A stretch of 64,000 nt of DNA. It comes from Geothrix sp. (lineage in GTDB: Bacteria; Acidobacteriota; Holophagae; Holophagales; Holophagaceae). The first letter of the stretch is position 1, and each line of letters opens with the position of its first letter. The notes under the pieces were generated by a model, which was not told where the DNA came from, ran no database searches, and saw only the letters and a list, made by a program, of their open reading frames with translations. The position numbers and the translations under genes were made by a program. The stretch is from the NCBI GenBank assembly GCA_030824075.1, contig JAVBYJ010000020.1, forward strand, positions 1-64,000, given 5' to 3'. Shown here one piece after another: positions 3,970-35,539 of this stretch.

Positions 3970-3980
3970 GGGGGTGAACC

Positions 3981-4532: not shown

Positions 4533-4541
4533 GAGGAAGCC

Positions 4542-17282: not shown

Positions 17283-17681
17283 ATGGCCCATGATCTGCGG
17301 ACGCTGGTGGAGCAACTGAAGGCGGTATCGCATCCGCTGCGGCTTCGGGTACTGGCGCTTCTCGTCCCGGGGGAACTGTGCGTGTGCCAGGTGGCCGAGG
17401 TGCTTCAGGTGCCGCAGTCATCCGTGTCTGAAGCGCTGCGGGAACTCCGCCGCGCGGGCTTCGTGGTGGAGCGCAAGGAAGGGCGTTGGGTCTTCGTGTC
17501 CGTGGTGCCCAAGAAAACCTCATCGCCCCTGCTCAAGGGCCTGCTTGCTGAGGCCGAGACTCTGCCCGAGGTTCTGCAGGACCGGGTTCGCGCCAAAGAG
17601 GTCAAGGACATGTCCATCCTGACGGTGTGTTCCAAGGTCCAGAAAGCAGTCATATCCAATCGCGAGGCCGCCCGTGTCTGA
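17283..17681 (+). CDS. arsR: ArsR-type arsenic-responsive repressor
   Basis: The 132-residue winged-helix protein contains the ELCVCQV motif near residue 33 in the DNA-binding helix. The paired cysteines of this ELCVC motif bind As(III) in classical ArsR repressors. The rest of the winged helix follows (SSVSEALRELRRAGFVVERKEGRWVFVSV). It should repress the downstream genes until arsenite or a trivalent organoarsenical binds. The stop overlaps the next gene by eight bases, so both are co-translated. This differs from the second ArsR in the window (25985), whose cysteines are at the C-terminus, so two sensing geometries coexist. Confidence 0.88.
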   Translation: MAHDLRTLVEQLKAVSHPLRLRVLALLVPGELCVCQVAEVLQVPQSSVSEALRELRRAGFVVERKEGRWVFVSVVPKKTSSPLLKGLLAEAETLPEVLQDRVRAKEVKDMSILTVCSKVQKAVISNREAARV

Positions 17682-18717: not shown

Positions 18718-18725
18718 GAGCCCCC

Positions 18726-18959
18726 ATGCTCATCGAAGTCTTCGGCCCCGGTTGCGCCAAGTGCCAGACCCTGGAAAAGCACGCCAAGCTCGCGGCGGAG
18801 CAGTCCGGCGGCAATCACCAGGTGGTGAAGGTCTCCGACTACGCGGTCATGGTGGCCCGGGGCATCCTCAGCACCCCTGCCCTCGCGCTGGACGGCCAGC
18901 TCAAGTTCCAGGGCAAGGTGGTCAGCTCGGATGACATCCTGGCCCTGCTCAAAGGCTGA
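18726..18959 (+). CDS. Small thioredoxin-fold redox protein (TM0996/MTH895 family)
   Basis: The 77-residue protein has a CAKC redox motif at about residues 10-13 (EVFGPGCAKCQTLEKHAKLA) and the cis-proline region STPALALDG. It matches the short 'redox-active disulfide protein 2' family, which is often coded next to ArsP-like permeases. It may reduce the permease cysteines or an arsenical bound to them. The ribosome binding site overlaps the arsP stop codon (TAGGAG). Confidence 0.82.
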   Translation: MLIEVFGPGCAKCQTLEKHAKLAAEQSGGNHQVVKVSDYAVMVARGILSTPALALDGQLKFQGKVVSSDDILALLKG

Positions 18960-19004
18960 GGCGCGCCCCTCCTCGATCCCACCTGATCTCCACAGGGAGT
19001 TCCC

Positions 19005-19391
19005 ATGTCCTTTCCGCGCCTTGGCGCCCTCATGCTCACCCTCTCTGCATCCCTCTATGCCCAGGGGCCGGTTCCCGCCCTGGACCCCGCGGGGCTCAGC
19101 CAGATCCTGACGTCCAAGCAGTGGACCGTCATCGAGTTCGGCGGCCCCACCTGTGTACCCTGCGTGAAGATGCAGCCGATCCTCGGCGAGCTCCAGCAGA
19201 GTTTTGGAAGCCGCGCCCAGATCCGGAACTTCTATGTCACCCAGCACCCGAAGGAAGCCCAGGCTCACCGGATCATGGTGATGCCGACCCAGGTGGTGTT
19301 CGACCCGAGTGGCAAGGAAGTGACTCGCCACATCGGCTACTGGCCCAAGGATGAGTTCCTCGCGGCCCTGGCCAAGGTCGGATTGAAGTGA
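19005..19391 (+). CDS. Exported thioredoxin-family protein
   Basis: The 128-residue product has a signal peptide (to about residue 20) followed by a thioredoxin fold with the active site CVPC (FGGPTCVPCVKMQPIL) and the cis-proline MPTQVVFDPSGKEV. It would work in the periplasm. Its stop overlaps the start of the CcdA-like gene, the membrane protein that usually feeds electrons to such periplasmic thioredoxins. AGGGAG precedes the start. Confidence 0.85.
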   Translation: MSFPRLGALMLTLSASLYAQGPVPALDPAGLSQILTSKQWTVIEFGGPTCVPCVKMQPILGELQQSFGSRAQIRNFYVTQHPKEAQAHRIMVMPTQVVFDPSGKEVTRHIGYWPKDEFLAALAKVGLK

Positions 19392-20101
19392 TGGACGGCC
19401 TCATCGGCCGCCTGGCGGATCTGGTGGCACAGGCCCCGGCCTACCAGCAACTGGGTCTCGTGTTCCTGGGCGGCCTGCTGACGTCAGCCAACCCCTGCGT
19501 GCTCGTGGCAGCGCCGCTGGTGGTTGGTTTCACCGGCGGCACGAAGGAAGGCCGTCACCACCCCATGGTGCTCTCCGCGGTTTTCGTCCTGGGACTTGCC
19601 GCGGCCTTCACCATTCTGGGTCTCGTCGCCGCCCTGACCGGCAGCCTCATGGGCGATGTCGGCTGGGGCTGGAAGGCCCTGTTGGGGCTTATCCTGCTGG
19701 CCGTGGGGCTGCACCTGCTGGGGCTGTTCTCCCTCCCGACTCCGTCCCACAGCCACATGGCGCGTTTTCATGGCGCTGGGCTTCTGGGCGCCTTCGCGCT
19801 GGGTGGTCTCACTGGAACCCTTTCCGCCCCCTGCGCCACCCCAGCCCTGGCCGCGGTGCTCACCATCGTGGCCCTGCAGAAGAAGGTGCTCTGGGGCGGC
19901 GTGCTGCTGTTCACCTATGCCCTTGGCCATGTCCTGCTGTTGTTCCTGGCAGGCGCATCCTCGGGCTGGGCCAGCAAGTATGCGGAGAGCCACTTCTCGA
20001 AACTGCTGGGCCGCTGGCTTCCCAAAGGGATGGGTCTGCTGCTCACGCTATGCGCGTTCTGGGTGTTCAGCCTCGCCTGGCGTTCCCATATCCCGGGGTG
20101 A
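19391..20101 (+). CDS. ccdA: CcdA/DsbD-like transmembrane thiol-disulfide transporter
   Basis: The 236-residue membrane protein has about six helices and the family features SANPCVLVAAPLVVGF and TLSAPCATPALAAVL. The two cysteines in these prolines-flanked motifs are the redox pair of CcdA proteins. It carries electrons from cytoplasmic thioredoxin to periplasmic thioredoxin-like proteins, presumably the one encoded just upstream. The ATG at 19391 overlaps the previous stop (TGATG); a GTG three bases earlier is also possible. Gene order arsR-arsP-trx-trx-ccdA suggests the thiol relay serves arsenic handling. Confidence 0.84.
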   Translation: MDGLIGRLADLVAQAPAYQQLGLVFLGGLLTSANPCVLVAAPLVVGFTGGTKEGRHHPMVLSAVFVLGLAAAFTILGLVAALTGSLMGDVGWGWKALLGLILLAVGLHLLGLFSLPTPSHSHMARFHGAGLLGAFALGGLTGTLSAPCATPALAAVLTIVALQKKVLWGGVLLFTYALGHVLLLFLAGASSGWASKYAESHFSKLLGRWLPKGMGLLLTLCAFWVFSLAWRSHIPG

Positions 20102-20200
20102 ATTCCCCGTGCTGCTGCGACTGGCTTCGGTGTCTTGCCTCTGATCTGCGGTCTGGCTCGACCGATTCGGGCCAGACGCCCTGGGACCCGACCACATGGA

Positions 20201-20247
20201 GAAGGGAGCCCAGGGTCGTGCAGGACGCATGACCATGGGCTCCCTTC
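20201..20247. terminator. Bidirectional hairpin between convergent genes
   Basis: A 21-bp stem with two imperfect pairs (GAAGGGAGCCCAGGGTCGTGC at 20201-20221 against 20227-20247) and a 5-nt loop lies between the ccdA stop and the cytochrome stop. It has no long T-tract, but position and strength fit a shared terminator. Confidence 0.7.
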
Positions 20248-20257
20248 GCGTTTCGAC

Positions 20258-22471
20258 CTACTTCGCGTCCCCGCTGATCCGAGCGAACGCATGGCACTTG
20301 CTGCAGGAGTTCGGCATGATGTCGAAATCCTTGCCCTTGGATGGATCTGGGTTCTTAAGCACAGAACTCTGAGCGGGCCACACGATATCGAAGACATGGG
20401 AGGCAAGGTTTCCTTCGGCCACGGCGCTTTTGCCCTCCTTATCGAAATCGAGGTGATACATCGCGGGGACATTGATGTCCTGCAGCTTCCCGATCTTCGC
20501 CATATGGCAGGAGGCGCAGTTGCCCACGGGCATCTTGGGATCCTCAGGCGTATAGAGGGCCCCGCCCATGCCCGCCCCGGTCTGCATGTGCTTGGCCATG
20601 CTCCGGGCGACCCGGTTCCTGGCCAGGGCGGCATCGGCGGCCTTCACGGAAACGGCGGCTCCGTCCTTCGTCACCTTCCGCCCCGCATCGAGTTGCAGCA
20701 CGGCCACATCTGAAAGGGTGATCCCCGCGAAGGACCCCCGCTTGGCATGGCAGGCCAGGCAGAGCGTGTTGTTTCCGTAGGCGGCATTGGCGAAATCGTA
20801 GCCTCCAACCTTGAGTGAAGCGGGCCCGCCATCCTGGCTGTGGGGATCGTGACAGGAGAAACAGGTCAGTTTTTCAGTCTGGTTGTTGAGGTGGGCGGAC
20901 CGTCGCAGTTCCGACAGCTCCATGGAGTGGGAGCGGGCGTGGGTCTGGTCGGGCCAGGCATGGAACGCGCCCTCCTTCCAGTCGGGGTTGAGGCCCGTGG
21001 TCGGTTTTTCGTAGTTGGCGAAGAAGGTCGAAAGGTCATACACGCCTGGCACGAAGAACCCGTGGCCCAGCGTGTCCTTGTAGGCCCCATCAAAGGCGGG
21101 TTTGAACACGCCGCTGGGTCGCTGGCTGCGGCCATCGTGGTTCCCATGGCACTGTCCACAGGCCTCGTTCCCGGCCTTGGCGGTGAGGTACCGGGGCACG
21201 ATGATCTTGGCCTTGTCAGAGGTGGCGGCATGCTCAGAGCCGGGACCGTGGCAACGCTCGCAGCTGATGTTCAGATCCTTGTAGTCCCAGTTCACGACCA
21301 CCGACTTGTACTTGTGGGCCGGATTGGGGTCGCTGACGAAGTCCTTCATCGTGATCTGCACGCCGGTGGCGTGGCAGCCCGCGCAGTTCCGCGACAGGGT
21401 GTTGTCTGGCGTGCACCAGTGGTCCGGGGATTTCTGCCAGAACATCGGCGCGCCCAGTTGACCCTTCGCCAGCACCTTGGAACCCTCGGGCGTCCCGTCC
21501 TGCATCATGAACACCGGCATGTAGCAGATGTAGTCCTGCTTCTGCCCCTCCCGGGACACGCCGTTCTCCTTCATCCACGCCGCGACGTACGGCACGTCCT
21601 GGACCTTGCACATGTAGCGCTGCTTGCCCTCGCCGAAGTTGGGATGGCGGTCGGGCATCTTGTGCGCGGGATCAACGTAGCCCTTGCCCCAGTTGCCTTC
21701 TCCCCCGATGGTCGCGGCCACCTGGATCCAGACGGCATTCGCGGGCTTGTCCGAGGCATCCAGATCGGCCTCCGTCAACGACACGCCGGCCTTCTGCTCA
21801 GGATAGAACTTGAACCAGTACTCGCGGTTCGGATCCTGTCCCCGGGTGGTCAGCACCACATGGACCAGGCCGTTGCCATCCAAGGGATCCTGCACCTTCA
21901 GCAGGTTCCCCTTGGGATCCCGGGGCAGATACTTTTCACCCGGCGCGGGCCACTTGTCCTTGTAGACCATGTGGCTGGTGCCTTCGGTGACGAAGCGCGC
22001 ATGCACCGATGCGTTCGGACTGCCGTCCAGTGCCTTCACATGAGGGCCGTTGTGGCAGGCCGCGCAGGCCTTCATGCCGACATAGGAAGCAGCATCGCTG
22101 GGTCGCCCCGACAGCGTGATCTCCACGCCACCGGTGGTGGCGCCCGCCTTCACCGCCACGGCCTTCAGGGTTTCGCCATCCAGGTGGGTGCGGTTGGGCG
22201 CCTTCACCTGGAGGAAGACAGCGCCCGATTTCACCCCCTTGAGGCTGAAAGAGCCATCCTTTCCCGTGCTGGCCTTCATCGTCTGGCCCTCGACAGTCAC
22301 GGTGGCCCCGGGGATGGCCGCGCCATGGATGTCCTTCACCCGCCCCTGGATCCCCGCCCCCGCACTGGCTTTGGGGGCCTGTGCCTGCAGCGTTGCGTAT
22401 GCGCCCGAGGCGCCTGTCGCGAGGATGAGCCATGGAGCGAGCCATCGCAGGTTGAAGATTCGGCCAATCAT
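20258..22471 (-). CDS. Octahaem c-type cytochrome with N-terminal carboxypeptidase-regulatory-like domain
   Basis: The 737-residue exported protein has a signal peptide (about residues 1-30). A carboxypeptidase regulatory-like (Ig-type) beta domain follows at about 40-120 (GRVKDIHGAAIPGATVTVEG...GKDGSFSLKGV). Then come eight CXXCH haem motifs: CAACH, CAGCH, CERCH, CGQCH, CFSCH, CLACH, CASCH and CSKCH. Several extra cysteines and histidines lie in between (for example CYMPVF, CHGNHDG). It is likely a periplasmic or outer-surface electron carrier or reductase; the N-terminal domain could mediate surface or protein binding. I cannot assign it to a named family. It stands alone on the minus strand, with an FNR/CRP-like box just upstream. 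Confidence 0.83.
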   Translation of the reverse strand: MIGRIFNLRWLAPWLILATGASGAYATLQAQAPKASAGAGIQGRVKDIHGAAIPGATVTVEGQTMKASTGKDGSFSLKGVKSGAVFLQVKAPNRTHLDGETLKAVAVKAGATTGGVEITLSGRPSDAASYVGMKACAACHNGPHVKALDGSPNASVHARFVTEGTSHMVYKDKWPAPGEKYLPRDPKGNLLKVQDPLDGNGLVHVVLTTRGQDPNREYWFKFYPEQKAGVSLTEADLDASDKPANAVWIQVAATIGGEGNWGKGYVDPAHKMPDRHPNFGEGKQRYMCKVQDVPYVAAWMKENGVSREGQKQDYICYMPVFMMQDGTPEGSKVLAKGQLGAPMFWQKSPDHWCTPDNTLSRNCAGCHATGVQITMKDFVSDPNPAHKYKSVVVNWDYKDLNISCERCHGPGSEHAATSDKAKIIVPRYLTAKAGNEACGQCHGNHDGRSQRPSGVFKPAFDGAYKDTLGHGFFVPGVYDLSTFFANYEKPTTGLNPDWKEGAFHAWPDQTHARSHSMELSELRRSAHLNNQTEKLTCFSCHDPHSQDGGPASLKVGGYDFANAAYGNNTLCLACHAKRGSFAGITLSDVAVLQLDAGRKVTKDGAAVSVKAADAALARNRVARSMAKHMQTGAGMGGALYTPEDPKMPVGNCASCHMAKIGKLQDINVPAMYHLDFDKEGKSAVAEGNLASHVFDIVWPAQSSVLKNPDPSKGKDFDIMPNSCSKCHAFARISGDAK

Positions 22472-22509
22472 GTGACCTCCGGGTTGAAGTTATTAACGAT
22501 CACCTGGTC

Positions 22510-22523
22510 ATGATTGTGATCAT
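22510..22523. promoter_or_regulatory. FNR/CRP-type box upstream of the octahaem cytochrome
   Basis: ATGATTGTGATCAT contains the core TGAT-N4-ATCA used by FNR-family regulators. It is centred 45 bases upstream of the cytochrome start and could also act on the divergent rhodanese gene. Oxygen- or redox-dependent control would suit the cytochrome. Confidence 0.5.
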
Positions 22524-22737
22524 CTCTTGCGACCTGGCCAGTCAAATGACACAGGATCTAAAGATCCTCAGAGTGCGATCACCCGCTCCTGGCACCCGAA
22601 CAGGCACGATCCTTCACCCAGGCAGGTCCGGAGACACTCGGCGCTGGGTTTCCCGAGTGGGAATGGGAAGATGGATCCAGGTGGCTGCGAGCATTCTTTC
22701 CTGTCCACGCCAGGACGCCCTGATCCAGAGGTTCTCC

Positions 22738-23172
22738 ATGCGATTCGCCCTGTCCCTCCTGTTCGCCTTGGCCCTGCCCATCCAGGCGCAGGATGCACAG
22801 CTGTTCTCCCTCGAACAGTACCTGCTCGACTTCGACTACGCCGAGCGGCGCGACATGAAGATCAGCAGCAAGGACCTGGTGAACCTCCTCAAAGAGAAAA
22901 AAGCCGTGCTGGTGGATATCCGCTTCAAGGAGGAACATGCCGCCTGGCGCATGGGCTTCGGCCTGCACATCCCATTGAATGAACTGCCGAAACGGCTCAA
23001 GGAGCTGGATCGATCAAAAATCATCGTGACGGCCTGCCCCCACAAGGACCGCTCCGCGCTGGCCATGGTCTACCTCAAGACCCAGGGCTTTGATGTGAAG
23101 TATCTGGAGGACGGCCTGCTGGGGCTGGCGGAGCTGCTGCGGGGCGACAAGGCCCGCGACTTCAGACCCTGA
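22738..23172 (+). CDS. Exported rhodanese-like protein
   Basis: The 144-residue product has a signal peptide (MRFALSLLFALALPIQAQ) and one rhodanese domain. It keeps the catalytic cysteine in the loop TACPHKDRSALAM, so it is probably an active periplasmic sulfurtransferase. The start at 22738 has an AGAGG site upstream; the same frame is open back to 22510 but gives no signal peptide there. It is convergent with the arsenic operon whose last gene also carries a rhodanese domain. Confidence 0.8.
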   Translation: MRFALSLLFALALPIQAQDAQLFSLEQYLLDFDYAERRDMKISSKDLVNLLKEKKAVLVDIRFKEEHAAWRMGFGLHIPLNELPKRLKELDRSKIIVTACPHKDRSALAMVYLKTQGFDVKYLEDGLLGLAELLRGDKARDFRP

Positions 23173-23191
23173 ATCCACCCACCTTTCCGGA

Positions 23192-24019
23192 TCAGAACCG
23201 CTCGGCCTTCCACTGCTCCAACCGTCGCCGGATCTCATCCCGACCTGCGCGAAAGCGTGTCCGTAGATCTTCGGGCGTGAGGCTCGGATCATCGCTGGCG
23301 GGATCGGGGATGGGCCAGTGCAGGCGCTCAGCCTTGCCCAGGAACAGGGGACAGACTTCTTCGGCACAGAGGGTAATCACCAGATCCACCGTGGCCGGGT
23401 CAATGTCCTGGACGCTCTTGGAGCTGTGGGTGCTGGCGTCGATCCCTTGCTCCGCCAACACCTCGATGGCGTAGGGATTCACGTGGCTCGGACGGCTGCC
23501 CGCACTTTGGATGCGCAGCGTCGGGAAGAGCTGCCGGGCGATGCCTTCCGCCATCTGGGAACGGGCGCTGTTGGCGACACACAGGAACAGGATGGAGCGG
23601 GTCATGGGGCGCCTCTTCTTTTTAGAAATCATCACGCAGGCGCACTCACCGTGCAGCAGCGCCTCGGGATCGGTGTCGAGGGGCAGGCCTTCCTGATCCC
23701 AGGCGAGCATGCCGCCGTTCAGGCAAGCCACGTCGCTGAACCCGTGGTCCAGGAGGAGGTGGGCCGCATCCTTGGTGAACACCCCAGAAGTGTCCGCCAG
23801 AAGCAGGGAACGGTTGGTGGGTAGTTCCGAGAGCAGCCCTGATAGCTCTCGGTGCGGGATGTGGATGGCCTCGGGGACATGGAACGCCTTCATTTCCACC
23901 AGGTCATCGGTGCGGAGATCCACCAGGAGCGCCCCATCCTGCAAGGTGTCCAGGGCCTCCTTCGGAGCGAGAAATCGGAGCCCCTGGATCACCATGCCCT
24001 TGCCATCGAAGGGACTCAT
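23192..24019 (-). CDS. arsC: Fusion of an inactive rhodanese domain with thioredoxin-type arsenate reductase
   Basis: The 275-residue protein has two parts. Residues about 10-120 form a rhodanese fold in which the usual catalytic cysteine is absent ([18 protein letters not shown]), so it is probably non-catalytic. A linker with GECACV and a basic run (SKKKRRP) follows. Residues 139-275 form a low-molecular-weight phosphatase-type ArsC with P-loop CVANSARS and the two resolving cysteines in [10 protein letters not shown], as in thioredoxin-coupled enzymes. It reduces arsenate to arsenite for export by the ACR3 pump coded three bases upstream. An internal ATG at 23605 with a GAGG site could also give free ArsC. 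Confidence 0.88.
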
Positions 24020-24022
24020 CGT

Positions 24023-25120
24023 TCACCTCTTGTCGGGTTCGACCGCCGGGCAGCAGGTGACATCGGAGACTTCTTCGACGCTGCCTGGGTACCACTTCCC
24101 CTTGAGCCAGAGGGACACACTGACGAGGCCAATGAGCACGGGCACCTCCACCAGCGGGCCAATGACTGCGGCGAAGGCGGCCCCATGGGCGATGCCGAAC
24201 GTGGCCACAGCCACGGCGATGGCCAATTCGAAGTTGTTGGAGGCAGCAGTGAAACTCAGCGTCGCGCTTTGCGGGTAGGTGGCGCCCACCTGCTTCGACA
24301 TCCAGAAACTCACCAGGAACATCACCACGAAGTAGATCAGCAGCGGAATTGCGATGCGGATGACATCGAAGGGCAGCTTCACGATGGTGTCGCCCTTGAG
24401 GCTGAACATCACCACGATCGTGAACAGAAGCGCGATGAGCGTGAGGGGGCTGATCTTTGGCACAAAGACCCGGTGATACCAGTCCAGCCCCTTGAGCTTC
24501 CCGAGGAGGAAGCGGGTGAGAAATCCCGCGATGAAGGGAATGCCGAGGTAGATGAAAACGCTCTCGGCGATCTGGCCGATGGTGATGTTCACCACGGCAC
24601 CCTGCAGGCCCAGCTTCGCCGGCAGAACGGTGGCGAAGAACCACGCGTACACGCTGAAGAAGATTACCTGGAAGATCGAGTTGAAGGCCACCAGACCCGC
24701 ACAGTACTCCGTATCACCCCTGGCCAGATCATTCCAGACGATGACCATGGCGATGCAGCGGGCCAGTCCGATGAGGATGAGGCCGATCATGTACTCCGGT
24801 TTATCCCGCAGGAACAGCACGGCCAGAGCGAACATGAGCAACGGCCCCACGATCCAGTTCTGCACCAGGGACAGGCCCAGCACCTTCTTGTTCTGGAAGA
24901 CCAGGTGAAGTTCCTCGTACTTCACCTTGGCCAGGGGCGGGTACATCATGACGATGAGTCCCACAGCCAAGGGAACGCTTGTCGTGCCCACATTCCACGC
25001 GTTGATGGCGCGGTTGAAGCCGGGCACGGCGAAGCCCAGCAGGACACCGAGACCCATGGCCAGGAAGATCCAGAGGGTCAGGTACCGGTCGAGGAAGGAA
25101 AGGCGTTTCGGGACGTTCAT
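24023..25120 (-). CDS. acr3: ACR3-family arsenite efflux transporter
   Basis: The 365-residue membrane protein has about ten helices and ACR3 landmarks: [18 protein letters not shown], the conserved cysteine in [17 protein letters not shown], and [17 protein letters not shown]. It exports arsenite driven by the membrane potential. It lies in the operon arsR-arsM-acr3-arsC with spacings of 13 and 3 bases. Family and context agree, so confidence is high. Confidence 0.93.
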
Positions 25121-25133
25121 GGCGACCCTCGGT

Positions 25134-25970
25134 TCAGGCCGGTTTGCGGGCGGAGATGATCATGCTGGTGATCACATCCGAGGGCTGGGTGCCCTCGGGC
25201 AGCAGCCCTAGGAGGTGGTCGGTCATCGGATCCTCGCTCGGCAGCATGGCTTCCACCGCACCGGCCTTCGGGAGCAGGAGCTGATCCACGAGGCCGGCCG
25301 CTGCAATCATACGCCTCAGGTCCTCCACACAGGGCGCCCCGGCGATGCAGCCCACCAGCGCCTCGACGCTTTGGCGCAGGGCTTCCGGCAGAGGCTTCAG
25401 CAGCACCATGTCGGAGATGGAGACCCGCCCGCCGGGCTTCAGCACCCGGGCGATCTCCTTCCAGACGGTGGCCTGGTCGGGGCTCAGGTTCAGCACGCAG
25501 TTGGAGAGCACCACATCCACCGACGCCTCCGGCAAGGGAATCGCCTCGATCTGCCCCTGGTGGAAGGTCACATTGTCCAGGCCCGTGCGGCGCCGGAACT
25601 CGGCGGCGTTCTGGCGGGCCTTCGCCAGCATCTCCCGCGTCATGTCGACACCGTGGACATGACCTGCCGGGCCGACCCGCTGGGCTGCCAGGAACACATC
25701 CAGGCCCGCGCCGCTGCCCAGATCCAGCACGATCTCACCGGGTTTCAGTTCCGCCAGGGCCGTGGGGTTCCCACAGGACAACCCGAGGTTGGCGCCTTCA
25801 GGCAGCGTCGCCAGTTCCGCGTCCGAGTAGCCGACGCCCTGAGCGACTTCCCCGACACGGCTGGTCCCGCAGCAGGAGGACTGGGCACCGCAGCAGCCGC
25901 CGCCAAGGCTGGCGATCTTGCCGTAGGCATCCTGGATCTTCAGGTGGGTGGGATGGGTGGTCGGTTCCAT
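25134..25970 (-). CDS. arsM: Arsenite S-adenosylmethionine methyltransferase
   Basis: The 278-residue enzyme has a Rossmann fold with SAM motif I ([16 protein letters not shown]) near residue 85. The ArsM cysteines are present: GGGCCG...SCCG near the N-terminus, LGLSCGNP, and VGCIAGA in the second half. It converts arsenite to methylated trivalent species, which the ArsP permease could export. The ATG at 25970 has AGGAG upstream; an earlier in-frame start at 25994 would overlap the arsR stop. It follows arsR by 14 bases. Confidence 0.92.
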
Positions 25971-25984
25971 CGGTGCTCCTTGAA

Positions 25985-26308
25985 TCAAAGACAATGGGGA
26001 TCCCGGCAGCCGCCACCGCAGCAGTCCTGCCAGAGATACTCGGTGAGGGCCTTGAGCTGATCGAAGCAGGCGGCGTAACGGATGGTCGTGCCCTGCCGGG
26101 CCGCGATGAGCAGACCAGCCTCGGTGAGATCCGCCAGGTTGTGGCTGAGCGTCGAAGCGGGCATTCCGATCTGGGCTTGAATTTCGCCCGCGGGCGTCCC
26201 CTCCACGGGCCCCTGTACCACGGCGCGAACGATGGAAAGGCGCCCCGGATGACCCAGGGCCTTCAATTGGCGGGTCATCTCCTGGAGGGTGGGGTCGAGG
26301 TGTTTCAT
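25985..26308 (-). CDS. arsR: ArsR-family repressor with C-terminal cysteine cluster
   Basis: The 107-residue winged-helix protein (QLKALGHPGRLSIVRAV...MPASTLSHNLADLTEAGLL) lacks the ELCVC motif of the other ArsR but ends with a cysteine cluster, DCCGGGCRDPHC. C-terminal vicinal cysteines of this kind bind As(III) in the ArsR type known from Acidithiobacillus/Corynebacterium-like systems. It heads the operon arsR-arsM-acr3-arsC. A perfect palindrome directly upstream is its likely operator. Confidence 0.9.
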   Translation of the reverse strand: MKHLDPTLQEMTRQLKALGHPGRLSIVRAVVQGPVEGTPAGEIQAQIGMPASTLSHNLADLTEAGLLIAARQGTTIRYAACFDQLKALTEYLWQDCCGGGCRDPHCL

Positions 26309-26474: not shown

Positions 26475-26894
26475 ATGGGCGTGCATCTTGGGGACTCCAT
26501 CTCTCGCCGGAAGGTGCTCCGACAGGTCATGGCTGCCGGTATGGGGCTTCCATTGCTCGGCGGGCTCATGGCCATGCTCAGGCGGGTCCAGACCCGCCAA
26601 GTTCCCAGCACGGTCACCCTCCCGGGCGAGGTCCCCGCAGGTCTATCCGTGATTGGATCCGTGGTCGTGCAGCAGGATGCCGACGGGACAATTCATGCGT
26701 TCTCGGGACGCTGTACCCACCTTGGATGTCACCTCGATCGGGTTCAAGGGGACGAGGCCGTGTGCCCCTGCCACGGTTCACGTTTCCGTGGCGATGGGGC
26801 CGTGGTCAAGGGGCCCGCGACCCGACCCCTGGAGGCCCTGAAAGCCGAGCCGGACAAGGCGACCGGCGGGTGGATCGTCCGTGTCCGAACCTAG
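26475..26894 (+). CDS. Rieske iron-sulfur protein
   Basis: The 139-residue protein has a twin-arginine type signal (SRRKVLRQVMAAG) with a hydrophobic anchor, followed by a Rieske domain. The two cluster motifs CTHLGCH and CPCHGS provide the two cysteine and two histidine ligands of a 2Fe-2S Rieske centre. It is short, as in menaquinol:cytochrome c reductases. The gene overlaps the cytochrome b gene by 14 bases, so both belong to one complex that oxidises quinol at the periplasmic side. The ATG at 26475 is preceded by AGGA; an in-frame GTG at 26439 is less likely because it adds a non-family extension. Confidence 0.9.
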   Translation: MGVHLGDSISRRKVLRQVMAAGMGLPLLGGLMAMLRRVQTRQVPSTVTLPGEVPAGLSVIGSVVVQQDADGTIHAFSGRCTHLGCHLDRVQGDEAVCPCHGSRFRGDGAVVKGPATRPLEALKAEPDKATGGWIVRVRT

Positions 26895-29637
26895 CGGGAA
26901 GGAAGTCATCTGGAATTCGCCCTGGGGTTCGCTGGGCGATCTTGCCACCGCCAGTTTCATGGTTGCCGCGCTCTCCGGCGCGGCGGTCGCGGTGCCGTTC
27001 AATCCTGCGGATGGCTACGGCTCCATCGCCACCATGCTGTTGGCCAACCCGGCCGGAACCTTCTTCAGAAACCTCCACTATTGGACAGGTCAGGCCTGCT
27101 TGATCCTGACCGTGCTGCACATTTGGGATCACTTGAAGGCTTCGACCGAGCAGCGGGTTCGTCGTGGCGTTTGGCTTCGGCTGTCCCTAACCCTGCCGCT
27201 GCTGGTTTTCATCATGTTGTCGGGCTTCATGCTGCGTGGTGATGCGGACGCGCGTCAGGCCCTGCGGATCGTCACCGAAGCTATTTCCCGCGTTCCCCTG
27301 GTGGGATCCGGCCTAGCGACCTTTGCATTCGGGGTCGGAGGGCGACTCGATGTGGTCTATGTGCAACATGCCGCCACGGCCACCATCCTGGTCTGGCTCT
27401 TCATCATCGAACACGCCCGCCGAGTTTGGCCCAGGCTGAACGCCTTTCTGAGCGTCCTGCTGACGGCGGGGGTCCTCTCCCTTTTCATCTCTCCGGGGCT
27501 GCACGACGGCCTCGACCCCATCATCAAAGGCCCCTGGTACTTCCTGGGTCTTCAGGAAATCCTGCACTGGACGCCCTGGCCTCTGACCGTGGTCCTCGGA
27601 GGGGCCCTGTTGGTGGCCGGGTTCTACGGGATCCGACACCTTGGGACGAACGGGGTGGTCAGGATGAAGGGGTTGCTTCTGGTTGGCCTCGCCCTCTACC
27701 TGGGCCTCTGCGGCGTGGGAGCCCTGCTCCGCGGTCAGAGCTGGACCTGGGATCCTGCCTGGCCTTCCGGTCCCGGCGATTTGAAGGTCGGTTGGGTGTT
27801 TGCCCCGGCTCAGGAAGCCCCGTCCCCCCTGCCTCTGGTGATGGGGCGACCCGAAGGCTGTCTGGTCTGCCACCCGGGTGTGACCGGACTGGGGAATGCC
27901 CACCGGCCTGAAGCCATCGGCTGCGCGTCGTGCCACGGCGGGGACACGCTCTCTCTTAACAAGGCACGCGCCCATGCCGGGATGATCCTGATCCCTGGCA
28001 ACCTCGCGACGGCGTCCCGCACCTGCGGGACTGCCGAGTGCCACGGTTCGATCATCCCCAGGGTGGCGCAGTCCCTGATGACCACCATGCGAGGCGTGGT
28101 GGAGATCAATCGGCAGGTCTTCGGAGCAGCTGCCGGCACCAAGGAGAAGGAACCGGGCCACATTCAGAAGCTAGGCCATTCCTCTGCGGACACTCATATG
28201 CGGCAGCTCTGCGCCTCTTGTCACCTGGGCATCCCCAAAACTGAGTTGGGCCCCATTGAGGACGACTTCCATCACGGTGGTGGGGGCGGCTGCCTGGCTT
28301 GTCATCTCAATCGTACCCGGATAGCCCTCGAAGCCCTCCGGACCTACCAGCACCAGAAACTGGCTGGCAGTGCCACTGCTCCCAAGGTCCATCCCAGCCT
28401 CGATCTGCAGGTGGGCAACGGCAAATGCTTCGGCTGTCATAGCCGCTCGGGGCGGATCTCCACCAGCTACGAAGGCTGGCACGAGATGCACGAACCGCCG
28501 CCCGCAGTCCCTGATCCCAGGGATCCCCGCTACCGGGTGCTGGCCGACGAACGCGTCTTCGAAAGGGCGCGCTCAGACATTCATCAGCAACGCGGGCTCG
28601 AATGCGTGGACTGCCACAGCTCCACCGAGGTCATGGGAGACGGCAAAGCCCACGCCCGCAAAAGCACCCAGGTGCGTCTCCTGTGCGTGGACTGTCACGC
28701 GCCTGCCGGGTCCAGCCTTTCCATGATTCCGGCTTCACGGCTGGATCCCGAATCGCGCCGGATCCTGGCGCTGCGCCGATGGCCAGGGCCCGCACCGAAA
28801 CAGTTCATCCAGACCCGAAAGGGCGATGCCCTGGTCAACGGCGTGCTGGAGGAATCGACCGGAAAGCCCCGGCTCATGCTCAAGCGGGATGGGCTGCGCA
28901 AGGAACTGAAGCCGACCGCCCAGGTCTGCGTGGAAGGCGCCGGTCATGCCCGGCTTTCCTGCGGCAGTTGCCACACGGCCTGGGCGCCTACCTGCACGAC
29001 TTGCCACACCTCCCGCGATGAGAAGGCCCTGGCCTATGACTGGATCAAAGGAACAGAGTCCCCCGGCAAGTGGAAGGAACAAGGTGGCCCCTTCCTGGCG
29101 GATCCCCCCACCCTGGGAATCAGAGAGACACCCTCAGATCCTGCGAATCCCCGAGGCGTGATCGAAACATTCGTACCAGGCATGGTCCTGACTCTGGCGC
29201 TACCAGGCCAATCGGGCCCCCCGCTCTTCCGCCGGCTGTATGCCCGCATCGAGCCCCACACGACTCAGAAGGGTTCCCGGTCCTGCACCTCCTGCCACAA
29301 CAACCCCGTAGCCCTCGGCTACGGTCGTGGGGATTTGCGGTATGAGAGGACGCCCCGGGGCGGGCGTTGGACATTCAGGCCCGCCGCGGAAGTCCACCCA
29401 GCTGACGGCCTGCCGGCAGACGCCTGGATTCCCTTCCTGGGTACACGCGGCGGCATGGTGTCGACTCGGGAAGATGTGCGGCCTTTCACCCTCGAAGAAC
29501 AGCAACGGATTCTCCGCGTCGGAGCCTGTCTCACCTGCCACGACGAACGCTCCCCCGTCATGCGGAACTCCGTTCGAGCTTTCGATAAGCGCCTCGCTCA
29601 GCACAGTCCCCGGTGCCTCATGCCTGTGTGGAATTGA
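26881..29637 (+). CDS. Cytochrome b fused to a C-terminal multihaem cytochrome c domain
   Basis: This 918-residue protein joins two modules. Residues 1-310 form a bc1/b6f-type cytochrome b: haem ligands His66/His80 (spacing 14) and His163/His178 (spacing 15, as in b6), then subunit IV-like helices with GPWYFLGLQEILHW near the quinol site. Residues about 327-887 hold eleven CXXCH motifs (first CLVCH at 327, last CLTCH at 883) and one CX4CH (CGTAECH), so up to 12 covalent haems. Together with the Rieske protein this would be a quinol oxidase module that hands electrons straight to its own haem chain instead of to a separate cytochrome c1. The domain order and haem number are visible; the electron acceptor is not known. 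It could also work in reverse at high potential. Confidence 0.88.
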   Translation: MSEPSGKEVIWNSPWGSLGDLATASFMVAALSGAAVAVPFNPADGYGSIATMLLANPAGTFFRNLHYWTGQACLILTVLHIWDHLKASTEQRVRRGVWLRLSLTLPLLVFIMLSGFMLRGDADARQALRIVTEAISRVPLVGSGLATFAFGVGGRLDVVYVQHAATATILVWLFIIEHARRVWPRLNAFLSVLLTAGVLSLFISPGLHDGLDPIIKGPWYFLGLQEILHWTPWPLTVVLGGALLVAGFYGIRHLGTNGVVRMKGLLLVGLALYLGLCGVGALLRGQSWTWDPAWPSGPGDLKVGWVFAPAQEAPSPLPLVMGRPEGCLVCHPGVTGLGNAHRPEAIGCASCHGGDTLSLNKARAHAGMILIPGNLATASRTCGTAECHGSIIPRVAQSLMTTMRGVVEINRQVFGAAAGTKEKEPGHIQKLGHSSADTHMRQLCASCHLGIPKTELGPIEDDFHHGGGGGCLACHLNRTRIALEALRTYQHQKLAGSATAPKVHPSLDLQVGNGKCFGCHSRSGRISTSYEGWHEMHEPPPAVPDPRDPRYRVLADERVFERARSDIHQQRGLECVDCHSSTEVMGDGKAHARKSTQVRLLCVDCHAPAGSSLSMIPASRLDPESRRILALRRWPGPAPKQFIQTRKGDALVNGVLEESTGKPRLMLKRDGLRKELKPTAQVCVEGAGHARLSCGSCHTAWAPTCTTCHTSRDEKALAYDWIKGTESPGKWKEQGGPFLADPPTLGIRETPSDPANPRGVIETFVPGMVLTLALPGQSGPPLFRRLYARIEPHTTQKGSRSCTSCHNNPVALGYGRGDLRYERTPRGGRWTFRPAAEVHPADGLPADAWIPFLGTRGGMVSTREDVRPFTLEEQQRILRVGACLTCHDERSPVMRNSVRAFDKRLAQHSPRCLMPVWN

Positions 29638-30137: not shown

Positions 30138-31469
30138 CTAGAGAACGAACTGAAGCATCATCCTGTAGGTGTTGTAGGAGGAAATCTTGGGCGTGGTTCC
30201 AGCCACATCCCCGATCAGGTTCGTGGGCGTATTGAAATCGGTCTTCAGGTATTCCACGGTGAAGCGCACATTCTGGCCGTGCATGTAGTAGTTGACGCCA
30301 GCACCCGTCTGCTTGATCCGCTGCCCGGTCACGCCCAGGAGGAAGGCCACACGCCAGTTCTCCGCGAGGACGTAGGGCTGGATGAGCCCTTCCTTGCCCA
30401 CGGTCATGGGCAGGAGGTAGGCGCCCTTGATGTAGTTGCCTTCCTTCTGCCCGTTAAGTCCGCCGATGCTGGCGAGCAGGTCGCCGGGGTTCTTGTTGGT
30501 CAGGTAGGCATTGTTGAAATCGTTCTTGAGATACTGCCCCGTGAGGGTGAAGGTGCCGATTTTAGCCGTGGGGTATTCGAACAGGAAGTCCCCGGCGATG
30601 GCCTTGTAATCCACCGTGTAGCCGTTCTGGATGACGCCCGTGTTGGTCACGTTCTTATACACGGCTGAGGGCTGGTAGGCGATGCCACCACCGATGGTCA
30701 GGATGGTGGATTGGCCAAGGTAGCTGCCGGCATAGCCCGAACCCGGTTCCGCATCCAGGAACGCATAGGCCACACGACCCACATATTCCAGGCTGTTCTT
30801 CGGCTGCATGGAGGACCTGTAGGTCGTTCCGTTGAGGGGGTTGACCGCCGCGGTGTAGCCCTCGCGGCCCTGGAAGGCGCCCAGGGAATAGGACAGCTTG
30901 TGGTCGAAGAAACCGCCCCAGGCCACGGCGCCCATGTCGCGGCTGAACTTGGCCGGAGAGCTGCCATAGGCGGTATAGACGAACATGGACCGATCCTGGG
31001 TCAACGGCGCAAAGCAGTCATCCAAGTTGGCGCGGGTCAGGGGCAGCTTGGTGAGACCGATCTTGAAGTGGAGGGCATCACTCAGGTCCGCCGTCACATA
31101 GGCATCGATGATTCGGACATCGCGATCGTTCGGATCGGTGTCCTGGCCGGAGACGCCATAGCCGAGGGAACCCTGCTTCGTGGTGCCGGTGGCCCCGCAG
31201 GACTGCCACTTGAAGCCCCACACATCGTCAAACTTGCCAGAGAGCGTGAGGCGCAGCCGCTGGAAGTGGATGTCATTGCGGGAACCCCGATTGTCCGCAC
31301 CAGCTCCCAGATCAGTGGTTTCCGAGAAGACTTGGCCTTTGAGGCTGATGTCGATGTTCTTGACCCAGTCTGGAATCTCACCGGCCTTGGCCACCGTGCA
31401 GAAAGAAAGGGAAGTCAGGGCAATGGCGCCGCCGACCAGAACTCGAGTTCCCTTTGCGAGTGCGCTCAT
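30138..31469 (-). CDS. Outer-membrane porin (OprO/OprP-like)
   Basis: The 443-residue protein has a signal peptide followed by a beta-barrel sequence with features of the phosphate-selective porin O/P family: DWVKNIDISLKGQVF, RSRNDIHFQRLRLTLSGKFDDVWGFKW, and a C-terminal MLQFVL ending in a hydrophobic residue pattern. It probably lets anions cross the outer membrane. The start at 31469 has AAAGGAG upstream. A 36-nt repeat shared with the promoter region of the molybdoenzyme gene lies 104 bases upstream, which argues for common LysR control and a role in supplying the reductase substrate. Confidence 0.8.
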   Translation of the reverse strand: MSALAKGTRVLVGGAIALTSLSFCTVAKAGEIPDWVKNIDISLKGQVFSETTDLGAGADNRGSRNDIHFQRLRLTLSGKFDDVWGFKWQSCGATGTTKQGSLGYGVSGQDTDPNDRDVRIIDAYVTADLSDALHFKIGLTKLPLTRANLDDCFAPLTQDRSMFVYTAYGSSPAKFSRDMGAVAWGGFFDHKLSYSLGAFQGREGYTAAVNPLNGTTYRSSMQPKNSLEYVGRVAYAFLDAEPGSGYAGSYLGQSTILTIGGGIAYQPSAVYKNVTNTGVIQNGYTVDYKAIAGDFLFEYPTAKIGTFTLTGQYLKNDFNNAYLTNKNPGDLLASIGGLNGQKEGNYIKGAYLLPMTVGKEGLIQPYVLAENWRVAFLLGVTGQRIKQTGAGVNYYMHGQNVRFTVEYLKTDFNTPTNLIGDVAGTTPKISSYNTYRMMLQFVL

Positions 31470-31526
31470 GGGTACTCCTTTGTGGATGGGGGTTGTGGGG
31501 GAGTGGGGATCATTCAAAGAAGATTC

Positions 31527-31631: not shown

Positions 31632-32459
31632 TCATCCGACCGTGTTCTGGCCAGGGTCGGAACCACCTCGTGCGGGAGGGACCGCATCCTCACTGGACCT
31701 GCGCTGATGGAGCCAGATTTCATCTTCCAGCTTCACTTCCCGCCACCACTTGAAGTGATGCGAGTAGGCGAACAACTCATTGACCGTTCCCGTAATCATC
31801 GAGAAGAAGGCGGGTTTCTCCTCCGGGAACACCGCACCCATGTAGACATGGACGATGAGCCCGCACACCACCACTCCCACGGTCACAAAGTGGATCAGGA
31901 CGGCCCATCCCACCGCAGCCGTGCCGAACAGGTGGAAGGCCATGATGAGGCCCGTCAGCATGATGATCGGAAGCATGGCGTAGACCATCAAGGCGAACAG
32001 TTTCTGACCAGCGTTGTAGATGCCCTGGGGTGGTAGAGGTTCCTTGGACCGGCCGAGGATCCCCAGCACCCGGATTCGCAGCCACTGGAAATCATCCCGG
32101 TCGAGGGCGATTTCCTTCTGGAGCACCTCCTTGGTCAGATAGGTTTTCCCTCCGAAGAGGCCGTAAGCCAGGAACACGACGATCCACACCATTCCGACGG
32201 TCAGATGCGCTCTGAGCAGGTTCGACCTCGGGCCAAACAGTCCCTCCACCAACTCCAGGAACCACATGGGCACCACCCGGAAATGGGGCGATGACACCAG
32301 GGCCAAACCGGTCATCAGCTCCAGCCCCCAGACCATGGCATTGAACCAATGAAGCAGCATGATGGCGATGTGGTGTTTCTTGATGTGCCGCTGTTCCATG
32401 GCCTCCGCCTGTTCAGCGGTGAGCGGCAAGGGATGGGTGGGGATCGCGCTAGTCTTCAT
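31632..32459 (-). CDS. FdnI-type cytochrome b subunit of the second molybdoenzyme
   Basis: The 275-residue membrane protein has four main helices. Histidines in HWFNAMVW, RAHLTVG, IHFVTVG and VHVYMG fit the four ligands of two b haems in the formate dehydrogenase gamma/PhsC family. The block YNAGQKLFALMVYAMLPIIMLTGLIM is highly typical. It exchanges electrons with the quinone pool for the A and B subunits coded upstream. The start overlaps the B-subunit gene by 11 bases. This anchor type contrasts with the haem-free NrfD anchor of the first locus. Confidence 0.88.
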   Translation of the reverse strand: MKTSAIPTHPLPLTAEQAEAMEQRHIKKHHIAIMLLHWFNAMVWGLELMTGLALVSSPHFRVVPMWFLELVEGLFGPRSNLLRAHLTVGMVWIVVFLAYGLFGGKTYLTKEVLQKEIALDRDDFQWLRIRVLGILGRSKEPLPPQGIYNAGQKLFALMVYAMLPIIMLTGLIMAFHLFGTAAVGWAVLIHFVTVGVVVCGLIVHVYMGAVFPEEKPAFFSMITGTVNELFAYSHHFKWWREVKLEDEIWLHQRRSSEDAVPPARGGSDPGQNTVG

Positions 32460-33180
32460 GTTCCTTCTCCCCGATCCTGAGTTGCTGGAAGAACGCCGCA
32501 GCCTGTCCCAGGAAGGTCATGGCCACGGCCCCGATCACCAGGGGCTTGGCGGCCCTTTCCCAGAGCACCCCCGCCACCGGCAGCTTGGGAGGGCGGGGCG
32601 GATAGCTGGCCATGACCAGATCCACCTGCTCCCGCTTGCCCAGGTAGTAGACATTCGGTCCCACGGCAATTTCTGGAGTATCCCGACGGCTCGCGCCCTC
32701 GGAAAAGACCATCCGGAAAACCTCGCTGTTGCGGTCATCCAGGTCTCCAAAAAACTTGGCGTTCGCTGGGCAGGTGGTGACGCAAGCCGGTAACTGTCCA
32801 CGCTCCAACCGGGGTGAGCAGAAATCGCACTTGTCCACTTTCTTGATGACCGGGTTGATGAAGCGAGCCTCGTAGGGGCAGGCCTCGACACAGAATCCGC
32901 AACCGATGCAGACATCGCGGTTCACCTGGACAATGCCCTTGGCATCCTTGGAGGTGGCCGCAGATGGACAGGCAGGCACGCAGGGCGCGTCGTCACAATG
33001 GGCGCACTGGGCCACCAAGGTGCCCGCCACCAGCTTCGGGAACGTGCCCTTGATGGGCGTCTTCCTGATCTGGGTGCGGGAGAGACCGGCAGGCACCTCC
33101 CATTCGGCGTTGCAGGAGGCCGTACAGGCTTGGCAGGCGACGCACTTCCTTAGATCAGTGACCATGGCATACCGGGTCAT
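32449..33180 (-). CDS. 4Fe-4S ferredoxin subunit with C-terminal membrane helix
   Basis: The 243-residue B subunit has four 4Fe-4S motifs: CVACQACTASC near residue 13, CAHCDDAPCVPAC near 60, CIGCGFCVEAC near 90, and CDFC...CVTTC near 115-130. A hydrophobic helix near the C-terminus (PLVIGAVAMTFLGQAAAFF) resembles the anchor of formate dehydrogenase beta subunits and is absent from the B subunit of the first locus. It links the Mo subunit to the cytochrome b. It starts nine bases after the catalytic gene stop. Confidence 0.87.
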   Translation of the reverse strand: MTRYAMVTDLRKCVACQACTASCNAEWEVPAGLSRTQIRKTPIKGTFPKLVAGTLVAQCAHCDDAPCVPACPSAATSKDAKGIVQVNRDVCIGCGFCVEACPYEARFINPVIKKVDKCDFCSPRLERGQLPACVTTCPANAKFFGDLDDRNSEVFRMVFSEGASRRDTPEIAVGPNVYYLGKREQVDLVMASYPPRPPKLPVAGVLWERAAKPLVIGAVAMTFLGQAAAFFQQLRIGEKEHED

Positions 33181-33189
33181 GGCGTCCTC

Positions 33190-35412
33190 CTAGTTCTGGT
33201 TAGCGAGGGCCAAGGGACGCACGAAATTCACGCGCATGCCTGTGCCCCCCATCAGGGGGTCCACCTTGACGCGGCTCATCAGGTCCGTATCCGAGGCACC
33301 TTTTCCACCAGCTCGGGTCAGCAAGCGCGAACGCTGGCCAAATCCATGGACGACATAGGCGCAATCGCTGCGGATCCCCTCTGTAACCTTCAGACGGATG
33401 GGCAGGCTCTTGGTCCCGTCTGCATTTTCGAGAACCACCTTTTCCCCATCCTTGAGACCGAGCGCTTGAGCTGCCTGAGCGGCAAGCCACACCTCGTTCT
33501 CGGGCATGAGCCCGTGCAGCATCTCATTGTTCTCGGTACGAGCGAAGGAGTGGACGGGGGCACGTCCATAGATCAGGCGGAAGAACCCCTTGGGTGGATC
33601 CTCCACCGGGGTGTAGCGGGGGAGCGGGTCGAAGCCGAGCTCCTTGAGCTTTTTGGAGTAGAGGTGGATCTTCCCGTTCTCAGTCTCGAAGAGAGGTTCA
33701 CCCGCCGCCACCCGGTCCTCCAGGTAGGGACGGCCTGGAAACTTATGGGCGCCTCGAGTGCGCAGCTCGGCCAGGTTGAGCTCCATGGGCTCCGTGATGC
33801 CTGCCAGGTGTTCTTCGGGACTCGCCCATGGGAAGAAGGCCTCCAGCCCGAGCCGAGCCGCCAACTGCTTGGCAATCCACCACCCCGGTTTTGATTCATA
33901 CATGGGGTCACAGGCGGGGAATCGTACCGCGATGAAGGGCTCCTTGGCCGTTTCGGCGATGGTGGGAGCGTCATACCGTTCGAGGTAGGTGGCCTCGGGC
34001 AGCACCAGATCGGCATAGAGGACCTGATCCACGGGCATCACATCCACCACCACCAGGAGGTCCAGGGACTCGATGGCCTTGAGGGTGCGCTCCGGCTGGG
34101 GGATGCTCTGCAGCACATTCTGGCCGTACACGATCCAGGCCTTGATGGGGTAGGGTTGGCTTGAAACCGTCGCATCCACGAGGCCGTTGGTGATACCCAG
34201 ATCCTTCGACCCCAGGGGAAATTTCGTGCCCGCACCGTCTGCCCGGCCCCTTTCGGATTCCGGAAAATCGGGAACCTCGAACCCTCCCCTGGGGATTGAA
34301 GTTGAGAGGAATATCCCGCCCTTGCGACCATAACTACCGAGCAAGGCTGTGAGAATCGCCATGGCCCTCGATCGCTGGGTGTCATCCCCATACCAGGTGA
34401 CATGCCGGCCAGGATGCACCACCACAGCCGGTTTGGCCTGCCCCATGGCCCGGGCGGTGTCCCGGATCTGGGCGGCCGGAAGCTGGGTGATCTCTTCCGC
34501 CCATTCCGGCGTGAATGTTTCCACGTGCGCCGCAAGCTCCGCAAAACCCTCGGCGTACTTGCGGATGTAGTCCTGGTCGTACAGGCCTTCCGCGATCAGC
34601 ACATGGATCCAGGCCAACAGCAACGCTAGATCGGTACCCGGGCGGATCGGCAGCCACCAGTCCGCCTTCTCAGCGGCTGTGCTGAACCTGGGATCCACCA
34701 CCACCAGCTTCGCCCCACGGGCAAGGCCCTTGGCGAAGGCCGTGATCTGGCTGGTGAAAACGTTTTCGCCGAGGTGGCTGCCGATCAGCACCACCAGCTT
34801 GGCTTCTTCGAGGTCCACCGGCTCGGGAGATCCAAGCCCTTTGCCGAACGTCAGCGCGTAGCCCACTTCCCGAGGCCCCCGGCACTGCGCGAAGGCAGGC
34901 TCGGCACTGTTGGGCGTTCCATAGGCTTTCATCAGGGTGTGAAAGAACGATGCGCTGACCCCATGCGGGAAAAACGCCACACTTTCCGGCCCATGTTCCT
35001 GCTTCAGGTTCTTGAGCTTGTTGGCCAGGAAATCCAGCGCCTCGTCCCAGGAAACGCGCTTGAATACGCCTTCCCCGCGCTTGCCGACCCTCATCAGGGG
35101 CCACTTGAGGCGGTCCCGATCGTAGAGCAGACCCGTGCCAGCATTGCCCCGGGCGCAGAGGCGCCCCTGGGTCATGGGGTGGTCAGGGTTCCCCTCCACC
35201 CGAAGCACCTTCCCATCGGCGACGCTTGCCAGCACACCGCAGCGCCAGAAACACATTTCACAGATGGTGGCGATCTTCTTGACCCGCCTGGTCCCGCGCC
35301 AGCCGGTGGGATGAGCCTGGGCCTTCAGGGGTCTGGCCATTCCCGTGAGGCCGGCCACGCTCGCAACCCCCACTGAACCCATAAATCCGCGCCTGGTGAT
35401 GGTCCGCTTCAT
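33190..35412 (-). CDS. Second molybdopterin oxidoreductase catalytic subunit (PsrA/PhsA-like)
   Basis: The 740-residue protein has a twin-arginine signal (TRRGFMGSVG). Its 4Fe-4S cysteines are 51, 54, 58 and 86 (CX2CX3CX27C), and the likely Mo ligand Cys177 is in FAQCRGPREVGYALTFG. It belongs to the same broad family as the 1783 gene but differs clearly in sequence. Partner subunits are of the formate dehydrogenase/PhsC style. Sulfur compounds, or another oxyanion, could be the substrate; formate is less likely because the active-site context is PsrA-like. The start at 35412 has a purine-rich site (GGTGGGA) upstream and places the TAT motif at residue 7. No chaperone gene is adjacent. Confidence 0.82.
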   Translation of the reverse strand: MKRTITRRGFMGSVGVASVAGLTGMARPLKAQAHPTGWRGTRRVKKIATICEMCFWRCGVLASVADGKVLRVEGNPDHPMTQGRLCARGNAGTGLLYDRDRLKWPLMRVGKRGEGVFKRVSWDEALDFLANKLKNLKQEHGPESVAFFPHGVSASFFHTLMKAYGTPNSAEPAFAQCRGPREVGYALTFGKGLGSPEPVDLEEAKLVVLIGSHLGENVFTSQITAFAKGLARGAKLVVVDPRFSTAAEKADWWLPIRPGTDLALLLAWIHVLIAEGLYDQDYIRKYAEGFAELAAHVETFTPEWAEEITQLPAAQIRDTARAMGQAKPAVVVHPGRHVTWYGDDTQRSRAMAILTALLGSYGRKGGIFLSTSIPRGGFEVPDFPESERGRADGAGTKFPLGSKDLGITNGLVDATVSSQPYPIKAWIVYGQNVLQSIPQPERTLKAIESLDLLVVVDVMPVDQVLYADLVLPEATYLERYDAPTIAETAKEPFIAVRFPACDPMYESKPGWWIAKQLAARLGLEAFFPWASPEEHLAGITEPMELNLAELRTRGAHKFPGRPYLEDRVAAGEPLFETENGKIHLYSKKLKELGFDPLPRYTPVEDPPKGFFRLIYGRAPVHSFARTENNEMLHGLMPENEVWLAAQAAQALGLKDGEKVVLENADGTKSLPIRLKVTEGIRSDCAYVVHGFGQRSRLLTRAGGKGASDTDLMSRVKVDPLMGGTGMRVNFVRPLALANQN

Positions 35413-35539
35413 GGATTCCCACCTTTCCTCAAGGTCCTGCACCGACCCCGGCAGATTGGCTCAGGGCACCGGGATTGGAACTTCGGTCACATCAGACCGT
35501 CCAGCCCTGGACCTCTTTGATTCTTGACCTCATCGTAGG

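Follow-up and report, generated by a model that had tools for sequence, protein, structure and literature searches.

An in-frame cytochrome b–12-haem cytochrome c fusion beside a Rieske gene in Geothrix: a variant of multihaem Rieske/b complexes that probably feeds chalcogen-oxyanion or sulfur respiration

In Geobacter, GSU2930–2937 bring together genes for a Rieske protein, a cytochrome b and a 12-haem protein (PMC2825233, PMC5877670). Butler et al. proposed these separate genes, conserved in this split form in six genomes, as the bc complex of Geobacter (PMC2825233); since that proposal of 2010, we found no characterization of the inner-membrane step of the Ext cluster in the open-access literature. 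Jahan et al. describe ExtM as the 12-haem protein, ExtO as the Rieske protein, ExtP as the cytochrome b and ExtQ as a membrane protein, and an extI mutant reduced less selenite and tellurite, with fumarate and Fe(III) citrate reduction unaffected (PMC5877670). Anammox complexes use hexa- or octahaem cytochromes c (PMC12954380), and in Nitrospina an octahaem cytochrome c lies beside the bc genes (PMC3578206). The sequence-only reading of the locus described here had held that known bc complexes use only mono- or dihaem cytochromes c, which the Geobacter, anammox and Nitrospina examples contradict. The open-access papers searched yielded no description of a fusion between cytochrome b and a 12-haem cytochrome c.

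The window analyzed here, a 64,000-nucleotide stretch of a Geothrix sp. contig (JAVBYJ010000020.1), contains such a fusion, in one frame with no stop inside its 918 residues and overlapping the preceding Rieske gene by 14 bases (Table 1). Pfam searches of the two products gave Rieske, Cytochrome_B and multihaem cytochrome c matches, including PF00355 in the Rieske protein (58.3 bits; cut-off, 20) and PF00033 in the fused protein (33.1 bits; gathering cut-off, 27.2). The Rieske motif CTHLGC...CPCHGS is kept in seven of seven relatives, and the N terminus of the protein contains an RR pair (SRRKVL). Coordinates and Pfam matches thus bear out the gene order and overlap given by the sequence-only reading, the histidine pairs 66/80 and 163/178 that it placed in the b part are present, and its count of eleven CXXCH motifs and one CX4CH motif in the c part is exact. 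The observation of a Rieske gene with a fused cytochrome b/12-haem gene is confirmed.

Table 1 Features at and around the fused gene, in positions of the window
Feature	Position	Strand	Basis and remarks
Rieske [2Fe-2S] protein	26475..26894	+	139 aa, ATG start; ExtO-like in position
Fused cytochrome b–12-haem cytochrome c	26881..29637	+	918 aa, GTG start, single open frame
b6-like part, residues 1–185, four helices	26881..27435	+	PF00033, ExtP match, alignment
Subunit-IV-like part, residues 186–290, three helices; ExtQ-like in position	27436..27750	+	Alignment with L068 ExtPQ and L076
12-haem domain, residues 327–918; ExtM-like	27859..29634	+	NF040943, 12 aligned sites
ExtJ-like small exported protein, 99 aa	29793..30092	−	NF040942, 52.3 bits (cut-off, 52.5)
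ExtI outer-membrane porin	30138..31517 (ORF start; true start may be slightly downstream)	−	NF040900, 282 bits (cut-off, 150)
b561/FdnI-type membrane anchor of molybdoenzyme	31632..32459	−	PF01292, 69 bits
PsrB/TtrB-type 4Fe-4S subunit	32449..33180	−	Profile matches
PsrA/PhsA/SrrA-type molybdopterin subunit, TAT-like leader	33190..35442	−	PhsA, 534 bits; PDB 2vpw, 746 bits
Two rhodanese-type genes	22510..23172; 23192..24019	+; −	Latter fused to ArsC; possible context

Searches covered 396 genomes of the window's phylum, with the ExtM model, and 388 genomes of the phylum to which a Lacunisphaera MAG belongs; they found the in-frame fusion in the genome of the window and in G028 (locus L056), G279 (L055), G380 (L059) and the Lacunisphaera MAG (L023). 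The same fusion is thus present in four other genomes, spanning two phyla, with a Rieske gene nearby; this gene is adjacent in six of seven loci and 4.4 kb away in L059. Third codon positions vary most in the b, linker and c regions alike (over the linker, 0.58 versus 0.22–0.25 for L056 and 0.58 versus 0.33 and 0.08 for L055). Recurrence in five genomes and a coding signal across the linker rule out a frameshift or assembly artefact. Among the many congeners searched, just two have the fusion, so its distribution is patchy. The Verrucomicrobial copy from Lacunisphaera is 54–55% identical, which suggests transfer. A plasmid search returned nothing beyond partial matches to the haem domain or weak ones to the b part.

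Hydropathy, alignment and a weak model describe the b part as seven hydrophobic helices, four b6-like and three subunit-IV-like; the AlphaFold model of the full fused protein has a low pLDDT of 53 and loosely supports the helix count only. The haem b ligands H66/H80 and H163/H178 have 13 and 14 residues between them, the 14 in helix D being b6-like, and all four histidines (helices B and D) are kept in every b part aligned. By the established b6f topology, a chain with seven helices emerges from the membrane into the periplasm, the side on which c haems are attached. The Qo motifs are non-canonical, so that bifurcation would not be assured: throughout the seven aligned members of the family, fused and split, RGD replaces the PWxQ motif of the cd helix and GPW(Y/S) replaces the PEWY motif of the ef loop, which reads GPWYFLGLQEIL in the window protein. 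The RGD change is special to this family. The ef-loop change (xPWYFLGLQE) is common to the family and L076, the ordinary second bc complex of the same genome, which has a separate Rieske protein, cytochrome b and 7-haem cytochrome c; an altered ef loop therefore need not abolish activity.

The 12-haem domain aligns at all 12 sites with haem sites in 19 homologs, a few of which are without the last one or two. Because every site aligns, the CX4CH motif at residue 382 (28024–28044) is a genuine haem site; the same column is CXXCH in the ExtM proteins of L068 and L069. Judged by its NCBIfam match to ExtM (NF040943; 222 bits over 562 of 599 positions, short of the cut-off of 800), the domain is homologous to the Geobacter 12-haem protein over its full length. 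The b part matches the ExtP model (NF040969) weakly, likewise short of its cut-off (48 bits; cut-off, 290). Because both cut-offs were missed by far, we do not file the window protein as ExtM or ExtP; it would work like the sum of the two. A further model named ‘ExtO FeS subunit’ (NF040968, 416 positions) matches the haem regions of the fused gene, a name that may be misplaced because ExtO is described as a 14 kDa Rieske protein (PMC5877670). Modeled alone and without haems, the domain reached a pLDDT of 76 and a pTM of 0.78, and its fold, including a beta-rich insert at about residues 640–835, is suggestive only. Foldseek comparison of this model with the PDB gave no match at E ≤ 0.001, and a PDB profile search returned only short haem-packing stretches of NrfA and octahaem reductases.

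Relatives of the haem domain occur in several gene forms. In L057 and L061, the Rieske protein, a 7-helix cytochrome b and the haem c protein are encoded by three consecutive separate genes, and in L094 and L095 the haem protein has no b or Rieske gene nearby. The haem-domain tree unites the fused, split and b-less forms in one clade (100/99), from which the true ExtM of L068 and L069 stands apart; L095 nests inside the fused clade, so its b part was probably lost. The L095 protein (L095:9735–11864) has 12 haem sites and three N-terminal helices that could be a subunit IV remnant. In the b tree, the family is not shown as sister of ExtP. Two further loci have a Rieske gene followed by a cytochrome b fused to an 8-haem (L071:3268–6306, 1,012 aa) or a 4-haem (L070:4012–6708, 898 aa) cytochrome c. 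Their haem parts gave no BLAST match to the 12-haem domain. Because, in addition, their b parts belong to a different lineage in the tree, these are independent fusions, and b–multihaem fusion has arisen more than once.

The molybdoenzyme encoded beside the fusion does not reach the PhsA equivalog cut-off (694 bits), and its closest PDB relative is Thermus Psr, the next match scoring 221 bits. Against the ArrA model (NF041714), it scores 166 bits with a cut-off of 1,600, and with no ArrA, arsenate respiration as the main reading is ruled out. The Psr/Phs lineage includes the selenite reductase SrrA (PMC10100899), and rhodanese genes near SrrA are taken as a selenite marker (PMC8528874); that the rhodanese genes of the window, 2.5–4 kb from the Rieske/fused pair, are part of the module is something we only infer. 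ExtI scores above its cut-off in the window, L056, L055 and L023. The haem domain is linked to PsrABC–NrfD and YeeE sulfur genes without ExtI in L061 and L095, a setting that speaks for sulfur, and L059 has neither context nearby. Elsewhere in the window, another molybdoenzyme of the Psr type (A, FeS B and NrfD C subunits; 1783–5522) precedes genes for a chaperone-like protein and a sigma-54 activator, its PsrA being 38% identical to the one beside the fusion. An arsenic cluster (17674–26308) encodes an ArsP-type permease, the rhodanese–ArsC fusion, ACR3, ArsM and ArsR, and the Ext-type clusters of L069 and L096 likewise have ACR3/ArsC genes nearby. A 737-residue protein (20258–22471) has a CarboxypepD_reg domain and eight CXXCH motifs and weakly resembles the decahaem GSU2203/DmsE families. 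The congener locus L056 has a second ExtJ-like gene beyond psrA (L056:17786–18130).

Gene order relates the fused pair to the split Ext genes. L068 and L069 have the order extI-extJ-psrA-psrB-b561-extM-extN-Rieske-extP/Q, with a further gene for a haem c protein where ExtS would stand (the extI of L069 was not matched by BLAST), and in L068 ExtP and ExtQ are already fused, the subunit-IV counterpart scoring above the cut-off for ExtQ. L055 has the order extI-extJ-psrA-psrB-b561-Rieske-fusion, all in one direction. In the window and L056, the extI/psr genes face the fused gene convergently, and co-transcription of the psr and fused genes is therefore not given in the window. The PsrA proteins of split- and fused-type loci are 73–75% identical to that of the window and form one clade (97/98). 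No counterpart of ExtKL, ExtN or ExtS was noticed in the window, and ExtN had no match above the cut-off in the genome, which is 94.6% complete. In related genomes, the same extI-extJ-psrA-psrB-b561 block is continued by either the split ExtMNOPQS genes or the fused pair, a positional replacement. Because of this block replacement (L068, L069 and L055) and the intermediate forms of L057 and L061, we regard the protein as a fused variant of the multihaem Rieske/b complexes.

Sequence comparison establishes how the protein is built, its fusion and haem ligands, its homology and the way it replaces the split Ext genes; on this basis we infer quinol oxidation, the direction of electron flow, the partner and the substrate. 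One polypeptide unites the b6 and subunit IV parts with an ExtM-type 12-haem cytochrome c and would act with its Rieske partner. Menaquinol would be oxidized at the periplasmic side, one electron passing from the Rieske head to the first c haems while the other returns to the quinone pool via both b haems. With seven helices, the end of the b part would be periplasmic, and the 12 haems attached there could form a tethered wire and store. The wire would most likely lead to periplasmic or outer-membrane reduction of selenite or tellurite, or possibly of a sulfur compound, the substrate entering through the porin ExtI and being processed by the neighboring PsrA-type enzyme. Because domain order and haem count match Geobacter ExtP–ExtQ–ExtM with the ExtO Rieske protein, we favor, with moderate confidence, a Rieske/b oxidoreductase with its 12-haem wire in one chain, most likely serving ExtI/PsrA chalcogen-oxyanion (possibly sulfur) reduction. 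The sequence-only reading is supported in seeing here a quinol module of the bc/b6 type that carries its own 12-haem acceptor next to a Rieske gene, an arrangement conserved as a fusion. More tentatively, this one-piece quinol-to-wire complex, with a remodeled Qo site and a covalently tethered 12-haem domain of unsolved fold, may have taken the place of the split Ext complex in a selenite/tellurite respiratory operon and passed from one phylum to another.

Several of the same genes would also fit sulfur metabolism, in which the PsrA-type enzyme would act on thiosulfate, polysulfide or sulfur, perhaps oxidatively with electrons going to quinone, and the Rieske/b–12-haem protein would then pass electrons to an external or periplasmic acceptor. 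PsrABC–NrfD and YeeE/rhodanese genes lie beside relatives in L023, L055, L061 and L095, the window has its own rhodaneses and a PsrA closest to Thermus Psr, and ExtI homologs are present in sulfur-metabolizing bacteria (PMC5877670). We nevertheless consider this reading doubtful, as the sole genetic phenotype found for the cluster is that of ExtI with selenite and tellurite. In addition, a Q-cycle requires an acceptor above menaquinone, which selenite is and polysulfide and thiosulfate are not, so electron transfer from menaquinol to the latter two would not drive it. The potential of menaquinone is −80 mV (PMC4683180). The b part might also not bifurcate at all, acting as a simple membrane anchor or carrying electrons in reverse, from the periplasm through the haem wire to the quinone pool. 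The conserved loss, across the seven members, of residues of PWxQ and PEWY and the nesting of c-domain relatives without b or Rieske (L095 and L094) within the fused clade point this way; the Rieske gene and all four histidines that bind the b haems are nevertheless conserved, and the ef-loop change is common to the ordinary L076 complex, which makes this reading unlikely.

The sequence-only reading had linked the module to metal, humic or arsenic respiration, a link to which the locus lends little weight: the ars genes are of ordinary detoxification types, the molybdoenzyme is not ArrA and ExtI points to selenite or tellurite. Its suggestion that the wire could carry electrons towards the cell surface stays hypothetical. 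A general inner-membrane link from quinol to multihaem cytochromes for metal, humic or electrode respiration by extracellular electron transfer would agree with the proposed quinol-oxidizing bc complex of six Geobacter genomes (PMC2825233), with the greater abundance of Ext proteins with Fe(III) (PMC5877670) and with the eight-CXXCH protein of the window. It is very unlikely, however, given that we recognized no outer-membrane cytochrome conduit beside the fused gene, that Fe(III) citrate reduction is normal in extI mutants (PMC5877670), that the fusion is present in just two of the many congeners searched and that the recurrent neighbor is a molybdoenzyme. Overall, the fused variant probably feeds chalcogen-oxyanion (or sulfur) respiration and probably not metal, humic or arsenic respiration. 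Its existence suggests that the Rieske/b and 12-haem proteins operate as one unit, connects the complex with a PsrA-type molybdoenzyme and through it with chalcogen or sulfur respiration, and offers a single-gene handle for purification and structure determination.

Among known systems, the Rieske/cytochrome b complexes of anammox bacteria (Kuenenia) likewise have a b6-type cytochrome b with a multihaem cytochrome c in place of cytochrome f/c1, and in one of them b is fused to a dihaem c (PMC12954380). Their cytochromes c are hexa-, octa- or dihaem rather than ExtM-type 12-haem, the multihaem cases are separate chains and the complexes include NAD(P) oxidoreductase subunits. The L071 and L070 loci share the succession of a Rieske gene and a cytochrome b fused to a multihaem cytochrome c. 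Geobacter CbcL also joins an inner-membrane b-type cytochrome to a multihaem c domain, with a b part of the HydC/FdnI type and no known Rieske partner; a CbcL-type fusion is ruled out here by the Pfam match of the b part to PF00033, not PF01292. The closest likeness is to Geobacter ExtM, ExtO and ExtP (GSU2935, 2933 and 2932) and the next membrane protein, ExtQ, the putative bc complex of the extHIJKLMNOPQS cluster, which share the Rieske protein, the b6-like cytochrome b, the small membrane protein and a full-length homologous 12-haem cytochrome c, with ExtI and an ExtJ-like protein as neighbors. The window differs in having b, subunit IV and c in one chain, an added PsrA-type enzyme, CX4CH in place of one CXXCH and altered Qo motifs.
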